Shown: piece after piece, positions 16,500-34,326 of the stretch
Position numbering within the stretch: position 1 is the stretch's first letter
How the letters are laid out: every line of letters begins with the position of its first letter
Assembly: GCA_019639215.1 (NCBI GenBank)
Contig: JAHBSH010000012.1
Span: 1-42,679, forward strand
From: Acidobacteriota bacterium
GTDB taxonomy: Bacteria > Acidobacteriota > Blastocatellia > Pyrinomonadales > Pyrinomonadaceae
Length of the DNA stretch: 42,679 nucleotides
Direction of reading: 5' to 3'
Program-made: the position numbers and the translations under genes
The notes under the pieces: generated by a model
Database searches by the model: none
Seen by the model: the letters and a program-made list of their open reading frames with translations, nothing else
What the model was told of the DNA's origin: nothing

Positions 16500-16644
16500 G
16501 CTTGCGGAATCGTTATATACTTGTGCAAAGCGGTTTTGTCCAAAATTGTTAATGTATCGTAAAAATACGGTTAGGGCAAACCAGGAACACGGGCATTTAC
16601 GGGCTTTGCCGGACAATATCTTATAAATTTTATTTTAATGTCCG

Positions 16645-16672
16645 GGAACTTTTTAGCCAAAACGGTGTCTAA
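16645..16672 (+). promoter_or_regulatory. ECF (RpoE-type) promoter, probably autoregulatory
   Basis: GGAACTT at 16645-16651, a 15-base spacer and GTCTAA at 16667-16672 match the classic RpoE-type ECF promoter closely. It reads into the ECF sigma gene, so the sigma very probably drives its own expression. Transcription would start near 16679, downstream of the first possible ATG (16638). Confidence 0.75.
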
Positions 16673-16745: not shown

Positions 16746-17399
16746 ATGGTCTTCTCAAGGTCGATCACTTTTGACGACGAAGATATCGGAAATGCCGTTG
16801 CGGCGGCAGGATTTTCCTCTGTGACCCGTGATGCCGAAACAGAGTTCATAACGGCCCTGCAGGCCGAAGAACCGGAAGCGTTTGAAAAATTGATAGACCG
16901 ATATTCGGACGAGATCTACGGTCTTTTATACCGAATAACGGAGGATGCCGAGGAAGCCGGTGACCTGACCCAGGAAACATTCATAAGCGCGGTCAAGGCC
17001 GTGAAGAGTTTCCGAGGTGAATCAGAATTGAAAACATGGCTGTTCAGGATAGCTCTGAATCATTCTCGTAACCGGTTTCGATGGTGGAACCGCCGGGGAC
17101 GTAACATTACGGTCTCTCTGGATGCTGAGATAGGCGAGAGCAAAACTCCGATGAGCGAAATGATCGGTTCGTCCGCATCGACGCCTGAGGAGACCGCTAT
17201 TAGAAATGAACAGCAAAGAGAACTGGCAAAGGCTCTAAAAGAATTGCCTGAACAGTTCAGAGAAGCGGTCATATTATGTGACATCGAGGGGTTGAGTTAT
17301 CAGGAGATCGCCGACACGCTTGAGATAAACGTGGGAACGGTAAGATCAAGAATAGCAAGGGGCCGTGAAGAGCTCCGACGCAAGCTAAAGGATATTTGA
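16746..17399 (+). CDS. RpoE-type ECF sigma factor
   Basis: A group-4 sigma of 217 residues. Region 2 (about residues 30-110) carries FEKLIDRYSDEIYGLLYRI, DAEEAGDLTQETFISAVK and FRGESELKTWLFRIALNHSRNR. Region 4 (about 155-215) carries ELPEQFREAVILCDIEGLSY followed by a helix-turn-helix EIADTLEINVGTVRSRIARGREEL. These are the hallmarks of SigW/RpoE-like sigmas. The frame is open from ATG 16638, but that start lies before an ECF promoter at 16645-16672 and gives a 36-residue Gly/Thr/Asn-rich extension foreign to the family, so ATG 16746 is chosen. The implied leader of about 67 bases contains a GCCGG/CCGGC hairpin. The zinc-finger anti-sigma gene lies 271 bases downstream. Envelope stress is the likely signal, by analogy. 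Confidence 0.9.
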   Translation: MVFSRSITFDDEDIGNAVAAAGFSSVTRDAETEFITALQAEEPEAFEKLIDRYSDEIYGLLYRITEDAEEAGDLTQETFISAVKAVKSFRGESELKTWLFRIALNHSRNRFRWWNRRGRNITVSLDAEIGESKTPMSEMIGSSASTPEETAIRNEQQRELAKALKELPEQFREAVILCDIEGLSYQEIADTLEINVGTVRSRIARGREELRRKLKDI

Positions 17400-17401
17400 G
17401 A

Positions 17402-17633
17402 ATTGAACAGGGACCGAACGCGAGCAGGCTGTGTTTATTAAACGTATCGGTGCCAAACGAGAGGTCTGAACCAGCAAGTTTCGCGGGTGAGGTATTGATT
17501 AAGTTCGAAACGGTTCTTTTACAGTTGACCAGCAACTCAACCGGTGAGTTCCGGACGGGCAAGATCGGCCCTTCATTGTGAAAACGTGGCTTTCAGCATA
17601 ATAGGCAGTCTTTCGCCCAAGCCCCTGTTCAAT
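17402..17633. other. Inverted-repeat-bounded, probably structured intergenic element
   Basis: The space between sigma and anti-sigma holds no credible gene. It is bounded by an 11-bp perfect inverted repeat (ATTGAACAGGG at 17402-17412, its complement at 17623-17633). Inside are two further perfect 6-bp hairpin stems (17478-17483 with 17506-17511; 17534-17539 with 17545-17550), each preceded by the same octamer ACCAGCAA (17470 and 17528). This layout suggests a closed multi-branch RNA in the sigma/anti-sigma transcript, or a small remnant element. No known riboswitch or RNA family was recognised. Confidence 0.4.
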
Positions 17634-17670
17634 ATATGTTTATCTTCCACTTAGAGGGGTCGAAAAAACC

Positions 17671-18483
17671 ATGAAATGCCGCGACCTACAATATGAATTA
17701 CCGCTTTACGCCGATGACGATTTGTCGGCGGAAGAGACGGACGTTCTGAACACACATTTGCAAAGCTGTCCTCTGTGTCGGCAAAAACTTGCTGATATTC
17801 ACGATATGCGCTCATCGTTGCGTACGATGAAGGCTCCGTCAATGCCCCGAGTCAGACTGGAATCTTTACGCTCGGCAGTTTTGGCGGAATTGTCTCCGGC
17901 AATGCCATCCCCCGGCTTCCAGTTAATAGAAACACCCACGCGTTGGATCGACGCATGGTTGATGCCTTATGCCGTTGGGTCGGTCGCGTCGATAATTCTC
18001 GGCGTGACGATGCTTTGGCTTATCTTGTCACCTTCTGGTAATTTGCAAACAGACTTGGCTTCAAACCGCAACTCCTCGTCCTCATCAGCAATAATGTTGT
18101 CAGAATTTGATCCGATGGCCCTTGAATTGACACCAACCCAGTATGTGAATTCCAGATTTGGTATAACTGGTGAATCTCCTAGCATAAATCCCCGTGGAGC
18201 ACTTGTTTCTTTGACACGCTCAATGGTTCGGGGCGATATGAAAGAAAGTGAGGTCGTTGTCGTCGCTGATGTTTTTGGCAACGGACTTGCTCGGATAGCT
18301 GAGGTCATTGAGCCATCTGACAATAAACAGGCTATCGAGGATCTAAAAAAAGCTCTTCAGACCGATGACGGTCTTACTCCTTTTGTTCCGGCGGAAATGG
18401 ACAGACGTTCCGACAGGATGCGGGTGGTGCTTAAGATCCAGACCGTCGATGTTGATACTCGAACAGCACCTTCCGGAAGTTAA
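17671..18483 (+). CDS. Zinc-finger anti-sigma factor, membrane-anchored
   Basis: A 270-residue partner of the ECF sigma upstream. The N-terminal cytosolic ZAS/zf-HC2 domain shows Cys3 and the H-x3-C-x2-C signature as His29, Cys33 and Cys36 (HLQSCPLC), the form that binds and inactivates ECF sigmas. A single membrane segment lies at about residues 96-120, followed by about 150 extracytoplasmic residues of unknown fold (from about 120 to the end) that probably sense the signal or are the target of regulated proteolysis. The start at ATG 17671 follows AGAGGGG at good spacing. The unusual 271-base gap from the sigma gene holds the element at 17402-17633. The transcript ends at 18504-18550. The assignment rests on motif, topology and gene order together. 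Confidence 0.9.
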   Translation: MKCRDLQYELPLYADDDLSAEETDVLNTHLQSCPLCRQKLADIHDMRSSLRTMKAPSMPRVRLESLRSAVLAELSPAMPSPGFQLIETPTRWIDAWLMPYAVGSVASIILGVTMLWLILSPSGNLQTDLASNRNSSSSSAIMLSEFDPMALELTPTQYVNSRFGITGESPSINPRGALVSLTRSMVRGDMKESEVVVVADVFGNGLARIAEVIEPSDNKQAIEDLKKALQTDDGLTPFVPAEMDRRSDRMRVVLKIQTVDVDTRTAPSGS

Positions 18484-33811: not shown

Positions 33812-33873
33812 ATCTCACGGGAACTTTTTCCTCAATTTTGTGTCTAAAGAGATGAAAAGGAGGAATTTGTCCG

Positions 33874-34326
33874 ATGATCCGACCAGATATCAATGTCACA
33901 CCGCTGATCGACGTTCTTCTCGTACTTCTGATCATTTTTATGATCATCACACCGGAAAAGTCCGCGAGCATGAATGCTCGTGTACCTTCGGAACCCAAGA
34001 ATATTAAAAATGTATTGCCTGATCCGTTAACCCTGATAGTTTCGATCAACGATGATTCATCCATCACATTAAATTCAACGCCGCTTGAAGCTTCTGTTTC
34101 ATCACCCGATGCGTTGATAAGCAAACTAAGCGAAGTATTCACAGAAAGAACTCGTAAAATTGTTTATGCAAATACAAATGAAGGCGAACCTCGGAGAATA
34201 GAAAAGACGGTTTTTATAAAAGCTCCTAGTTCGATTGATTACGGGAGCGTTGCCAAGGTGATAGATGCTGTTCGCATGGCTGGGGCCGAGCCGATAAGTC
34301 TTCAGATCGACAACATCCCCAATTAA
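33874..34326 (+). CDS. ExbD/TolR-like protein
   Basis: A 150-residue proton-channel component. ExbD/TolR uses the proton gradient to drive TonB- or Tol-dependent work at the outer membrane. The N-terminal signature INVTPLIDVLLVLLIIFMI contains the single membrane helix with the essential Asp (Asp13). The cytosolic N-terminus is unusually short (about ten residues). The periplasmic domain of about 120 residues follows, including an extra polar stretch (ANTNEGEPRRIEKTVF) before the usual last part YGSVAKVIDAVRMAGAEPISL. AAGGAGG gives an excellent ribosome binding site. No exbB/tolQ or tonB gene is nearby, so the partner must lie elsewhere. It follows pabB by 62 bases. Confidence 0.9.
   Translation: MIRPDINVTPLIDVLLVLLIIFMIITPEKSASMNARVPSEPKNIKNVLPDPLTLIVSINDDSSITLNSTPLEASVSSPDALISKLSEVFTERTRKIVYANTNEGEPRRIEKTVFIKAPSSIDYGSVAKVIDAVRMAGAEPISLQIDNIPN

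Follow-up and report, generated by a model that had tools for sequence, protein, structure and literature searches.

Sequence comparison indicates that a conserved RNA module is built into the gap between the genes of an ECF sigma factor and its anti-sigma factor in most of the Blastocatellia families examined. In the window (the whole 42,679-nt stretch of Acidobacteriota DNA analyzed here), a 271-nt gap (17400-17670) separates the ECF sigma gene from the gene of a zf-HC2 anti-sigma factor (Table 1). The RNA family is absent from Rfam 15; it is a new family in a new kind of place, and not a proven new mechanism. Its structure and conservation were established by comparison with relatives, and we infer its function. 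Textbook sigma/anti-sigma pairs are controlled via protein contacts, and their ratio is held by tight coupling of the two genes. A class-wide conserved RNA positioned exactly between sigma and anti-sigma suggests a missing layer of control, and this RNA may help set the amount of the inhibitor relative to that of the sigma factor.

Table 1 Features of the sigma/RNA/anti-sigma locus in the window.
Feature	Position	Strand	Basis
ECF-type promoter-like site, GGAAC-N17-GTGTCTAA (-35 GGAAC, -10 GTCTAA)	16645..16672	+	Motif upstream of orthologous sigma genes
ECF sigma factor gene	16746..17399	+	PF04542, PF08281; homologue match ranges; promoter position
Structured RNA element, whole	17402..17633	+	R1 match, closing repeat, counterpart RNA in relatives
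P1 outer, 5' strand	17402..17412	+	Pairs with 17623-17633; compensatory changes in L003, L004 and the family
P1 inner, 5' strand	17420..17432	+	Predicted fold, pairing with 17605-17616; counterpart strands in L003 and L004
P2 hairpin, UCG-GUGCCAAA-CGA	17447..17460	+	Invariant columns; flank-swap permutation z 4.4
GGUC	17463..17466	+	Possible long-range partner of GACC 17527-17530 (hypothesis)
First ACCAGCAA copy	17470..17477	+	Not conserved (ACCAGCGA in L003, GAACAA in L004)
P4 hairpin, GUUGA-CCAGCAAC-UCAAC	17524..17541	+	Invariant columns; stem covariation z 9.6, 0/2000
P1 inner, 3' strand	17605..17616	+	Predicted fold
P1 outer, 3' strand	17623..17633	+	Inverted repeat; family covariation
Anti-sigma factor gene, N-terminal zf-HC2	17671..18483	+	PF13490, E 7e-8

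The initial annotation had proposed a structured RNA at this place from an 11-bp perfect inverted repeat closing most of the gap. This repeat is present (ATTGAACAGGG/CCCTGTTCAAT, 17402-17412/17623-17633), with 210 nt between its arms. Of 1000 dinucleotide-shuffled versions of the gap, 4 contained a perfect repeat of at least 11 bp and none contained one spanning at least 200 nt, so that the chance of less than 2% estimated at the outset was conservative. When folding of the single sequence was compared with shuffled controls, as had been recommended, z was -2.4 for the element (17402-17635), which is mildly unusual and not decisive by itself, and -1.1 for the entire gap. Since these values are modest and folding energy alone is weak evidence, relatives were needed.

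We took the orthologous sigma gene from 40 relatives and compared the gaps behind it, which measured about 185-320 nt in the genus. A 15-base gap motif occurred once per genome in 31 of the 41 genus genomes, and UCGGUGCCAA(A)CGA was found at 37 distinct genus loci, always 47-59 nt past the sigma stop codon and with an anti-sigma gene downstream. Typical closing arms in the genus are GAAUGG(U/C)UGACUCGCCCCGG...CCGGGGUCAGNNAGCCAUUC. In the clade of the window this closing sequence has been replaced, yet the pairing has been kept: the arms are AUUGAACAGGG/CCCUGUUCAAU in the window, AUUGAACAGAGGC/GCCUCUGUUCAAU in L003, and AUUGAGCAACGGCC/GGCCGUUGCUCAAU in L004. The gap of close strains, which had been named as a check, thus holds the RNA at the matching place with its pairing intact. 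One genus member (L018 of genome G018) has a shortened form of 163 nt, in which the P4 loop is changed (CUAACA) and P1 and P2 are intact; it may represent either a minimal version or an intermediate on the way to loss.

Covariation was measured in an alignment of 25 sequences that excluded the clade of the window (A2), from which the covariance model R1 was built. In A2, 92% of the cells were paired, 18 pairs were changed on both sides, and 100 cells carried such double changes versus 26 in shuffles; when the partner was shifted by one column, pairing fell to 40-46%. R1 matched the window, whose clade had no part in its construction, at 17437-17609 (39.7 bits, E 2e-10), and matched 39 of the 41 genus genomes in the gap between sigma and anti-sigma. 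In a larger alignment of 68 sequences (A4), 19 of the 22 pairs of P1 showed changes on both sides with 93.8% of cells paired, and P5 showed such changes in seven of nine pairs. A4 was fitted to R1 and leans towards the structure, against which the slide control and separate tests of the arms served as guards. Swapping the 3' flanks of the P2 and P4 stems between species gave z of 4.4 and 9.6 (0/2000 permutations each), with the proviso that these permutations do not keep relatedness. Compensatory changes in relatives, for which the initial annotation had called, are therefore numerous in P1 and P5 and extend to the P2 and P4 stems. Among wobble pairs, G-U (214) exceeded A-C (48), and the sense strand is therefore favored. 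It is this covariation, not folding energy, on which we accept a structured RNA between sigma and anti-sigma, and the support from it is strong.

In the alignments, the long helix P1 closes off a junction from which two hairpins with nearly invariant sequences (P2 and P4) emerge, and an extra hairpin (P5) is present in most Pyrinomonadaceae; P5 was not recognizable in the clade of the window. Inspection by eye suggested a CAAC-GUUG pseudoknot that might compete with P5. The inner part of P1 is predicted to pair as 17420-17424/17612-17616 and 17426-17432/17605-17611. By eye, most Pyrinomonadaceae members keep two mismatched C residues facing each other midway along P1 (A4 columns 22 and 413), although the adjoining pairs vary. 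The P2 loop is nearly invariant across Pyrinomonadaceae, as is the P4 loop, CCAGCAAC. We hypothesize that GGUC next to P2 pairs over a long range with GACC; the pairing was mostly canonical in the 68 sequences, and it is held at the level of a hypothesis because its bases are shared with P4 and the changes are mainly of the wobble type. The octamer ACCAGCAA had been described as occurring twice, each time followed by a hairpin. Both copies exist (17470 and 17528), and only the second, which spans the P4 loop, is conserved. The hairpin drawn after it (AACTCA..TGAGTT) is broken in L003, and the conserved hairpin is that of P4 instead. With its first copy replaced in L003 and L004, the octamer was ruled out as a designed repeat.

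The same comparison bears on two readings that would dispense with a functional RNA. It is very improbable that the gap holds a gene for a small protein. The gap of the window does have open frames, some 40 to 60 codons long; however, the position and length of the frames vary among relatives (10 to 127 codons), single-base insertions distinguish the window from the 91%-identical L003, no Pfam match was obtained, and substitutions track base pairing. We saw no conserved frame with codon-like substitutions across genera, and this reading was rejected. That the repeat arose by chance, or is a functionless mobile palindromic repeat, has a negligible probability. The modest z of the fold and the palindromic repeats that flank the RNA in many other genera would agree with it, whereas the element is present in a single copy at one locus and its covariation is far above that of shuffles and slides; covariation and synteny already refute it.

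We designated the families by handles (f1, f2, f4, etc.), f1 being identified from record titles as Pyrinomonadaceae, a family within Blastocatellia of Acidobacteriota. R1 matched 101 of 162 genomes of the class, all from f1 and representing 26 genera; 396 sampled genomes of the phylum gave no match beyond this family. The RNA was present in one copy per genome, at the sigma/anti-sigma locus wherever the neighbors were readable. We examined another 40 loci, most of them in other genera of Pyrinomonadaceae. The sigma gene lay upstream in 39 (blastp E below 1e-45), the sole exception (L131) being a locus where our script missed the end of the sigma gene, and an anti-sigma gene with a zinc-finger motif ended the gap in all 40. 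Within the family, the RNA is separated from the sigma stop codon by about 0 to 113 nt and from the anti-sigma start by 11 to 151 nt. In many other genera, f1 gaps (L106, L115, L122, L132, L133, and others) carry long imperfect palindromes of simple appearance (e.g., GATGTCAGATGCTAGATGTCAG) on either side of the RNA. They look like REP-type sequences and may affect processing of the message.

Eighteen genomes of the family gave no R1 match, and a close sigma match was absent in 10 of them. The RNA was present on inspection in three (G110, G151, and G152), G121 has the first part of it at the edge of a contig, G044 is truncated, and G086 has only a distant sigma match. Both genomes of genus g24 (G094 and G095) keep the two genes with gaps of 138 and 60 nt and have no recognizable RNA, which has probably been lost in this genus. 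These two loci (L171 and L175) offer a natural RNA-less sigma/anti-sigma pair for comparison.

A DNA pattern taken from the 3' strand of P1 retrieved 25 records from GTDB r220. Twenty-two are, by title, from Pyrinomonadaceae, Chloracidobacterium, Blastocatellia, or Acidobacteria and include the cultured Pyrinomonas methylaliphatogenes K22; 21 of these 22 Acidobacteriota records gave a full covariance match, and the record of the remaining one (L159) starts inside the element. The other three, from Caulobacter sp. BK020 and two MAGs labeled Chloroflexi, lie outside Acidobacteriota; they had no covariance match and were taken as chance. No match to the element was obtained in the viral contigs and plasmids searched.

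In five sister families of Blastocatellia (f4, f6, f7, f8, and f9), this gap is occupied by compact forms, 100-150 nt long, that share the core motifs (C)CGAUGGGUC and G(R)YCAGCAAC. The P2 sequence is GGUGCCA in Pyrinomonadaceae and GAUGGGUC in the compact forms, and that of P4 is CCAGCAAC. A sequence model built from six compact forms (R2) found further members in f4, f6, f7, and f9, none of which had been used in building it. All new members with readable neighbors lie between sigma and anti-sigma; one (L206) is cut upstream at a contig end. The P1 arms of f6, f8, and f4/f7 are largely unrelated in sequence, yet they are complementary, with a mean duplex energy of -41 kcal/mol for cognate arms versus -15 kcal/mol between families. 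The stop or the end of the sigma gene shares bases with the 5' strand of P1 in f4 and f7. In genome G055 of f7 (L183/L223), the sigma frame continues across the entire element, placing the RNA inside an open frame. The RNA is absent from the short gaps of f5 (3 nt) and f2 (56-107 nt), and the f3 loci examined had no recognizable form. Outside this class, the phylum yielded only weak R2 matches (no E below 1e-4), and the top two (L228 and L229), at unrelated loci, have neither a sigma nor an anti-sigma neighbor. The shared locus, closing helix, and two motifs suggest that the f1 and compact forms are homologous. No one model covers both, R1 scoring about 10 bits on f7, and the poor cross-family alignment (A5) was left out of the analysis.

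We searched Rfam 15 up to E 10 with the gaps of the window, a typical genus member, and a member of another genus and obtained no credible match; the sole one, to U4 on the antisense side, is spurious (12.8 bits versus a cut-off of 46). There was likewise no match to the Rfam classes of group I/II introns and self-cleaving ribozymes. The element resembles 6S RNA in its size (about 200 nt), long closing helix, and single copy per genome. In contrast to 6S RNA, it has a junction with two conserved loops, and 6S RNA (RF00013) did not match the gap; its matches fall at other loci in 37 of the 41 genus genomes, including that of the window, where the match is below the curated cut-off. The candidate structured RNAs Acido-1 (RF01686) and Acido-Lenti-1 (RF01687) of Acidobacteria, found by comparative genomics (PMC2864571), are likewise structured RNAs without an assigned function that were detected through covariation, but both have Rfam accessions, whereas the present element matches no Rfam 15 model. 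An RNA located between sigma and anti-sigma is not described in the literature searched, which lay outside the 2017 catalogue of 224 candidate RNAs.

The open frame of the sigma gene begins at 16638. Translation probably starts at ATG 16746 instead, as the promoter-like site falls within the early part of this frame and alignments with homologues begin near residue 35. The motif GGAAC-N15-18-GTCT precedes the orthologous sigma gene at 63 of 76 loci, its fuller form being GGGAAC-N16/17-GTGTCTAA, and the sigma promoter is probably autoregulated. No ECF-type promoter motif was found in any of the 76 gaps. In the gap of the window we found no terminator, and the one sigma-70-like site near it is within chance expectation. 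Because a conserved ECF promoter precedes sigma and none lies within the gap, sigma, RNA, and anti-sigma probably form one transcript. A close copy of the sigma promoter-like site (GGGAACTTTTTCCTCAATTTTGTGTCTAAA) occurs elsewhere in the window (33820-33848), just upstream of a gene resembling ExbD/TolR (33874-34326), which from this site is a candidate member of the regulon of the sigma factor.

For the role of the RNA, we give about an even chance to a cis-acting intercistronic element that sets anti-sigma output relative to sigma. In such a scheme, the three parts would be transcribed together from the autoregulated ECF promoter. The RNA would, in cis, stop ribosomes that finish sigma from running directly into anti-sigma, and would govern translation, processing, or decay of the anti-sigma portion of the message. 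The trigger would perhaps be a ligand or protein bound at the conserved loops, and the outcome would be a sigma to anti-sigma ratio set by the RNA. We favor the cis role because the locus is fixed, the sense strand is preferred, the promoter is probably shared, the element overlaps the end of sigma in compact families, and closely spaced gene pairs lack it. Like riboswitches and cis-acting leader RNAs, the element is a sense-strand structured RNA with conserved loops in one gene context; conserved sense-strand structure in a fixed gene context, by which riboswitches are recognized, was found here. Unlike them, it is intercistronic, neither a terminator nor a masked ribosome site was found, and its spacing to the downstream gene ranges from 11 to 151 nt. 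It is therefore unlikely that the element masks the ribosome site directly or acts through a set coupling distance. An obvious switch partner was likewise not identified.

The variable spacing also makes a processed small RNA the main rival. Such an RNA would be made together with sigma, excised, and act in trans on distant mRNAs through its conserved loops as the repressing arm of the regulon. Sigma-dependent small RNAs have precedent, for example, in the sigma-E response, and the element resembles them in that its synthesis would depend on the sigma factor. In the long P1 duplex RNase III would have a natural site, the nearly invariant loops are exposed upon varying stems, and the spacing varies on both sides of the element. 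However, it is embedded at a single locus between sigma and anti-sigma, about 100 genomes yielded no copy outside this operon, and the f4 and f7 elements overlap the end of the sigma frame. Its own promoter and intrinsic terminator were not found, so that the small RNA would have to arise by processing, which needs neither. On balance, we consider a trans-acting role rather unlikely. We regard as improbable that the RNA is a passive spacer, a stable structure that does no more than guard the ends of the message or let its two cistrons decay separately, without signal input. All forms have a strong long duplex, P1 varies in sequence while its pairing is kept, and hairpins of different sequence adjoin the element in several genera, all as a spacer would allow, but a passive duplex would not need two loops that are nearly invariant across families.

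Going beyond the cis-acting role, we suggest tentatively, and with less confidence than in that role itself, that the RNA is a previously undescribed, class-wide device within sigma/anti-sigma operons that adds an RNA layer (a sensor or timer) to an otherwise protein-based switch and would switch by docking of the P2 loop with that of P4. The cultured carrier P. methylaliphatogenes K22 (L160) gives a testable handle on the RNA.
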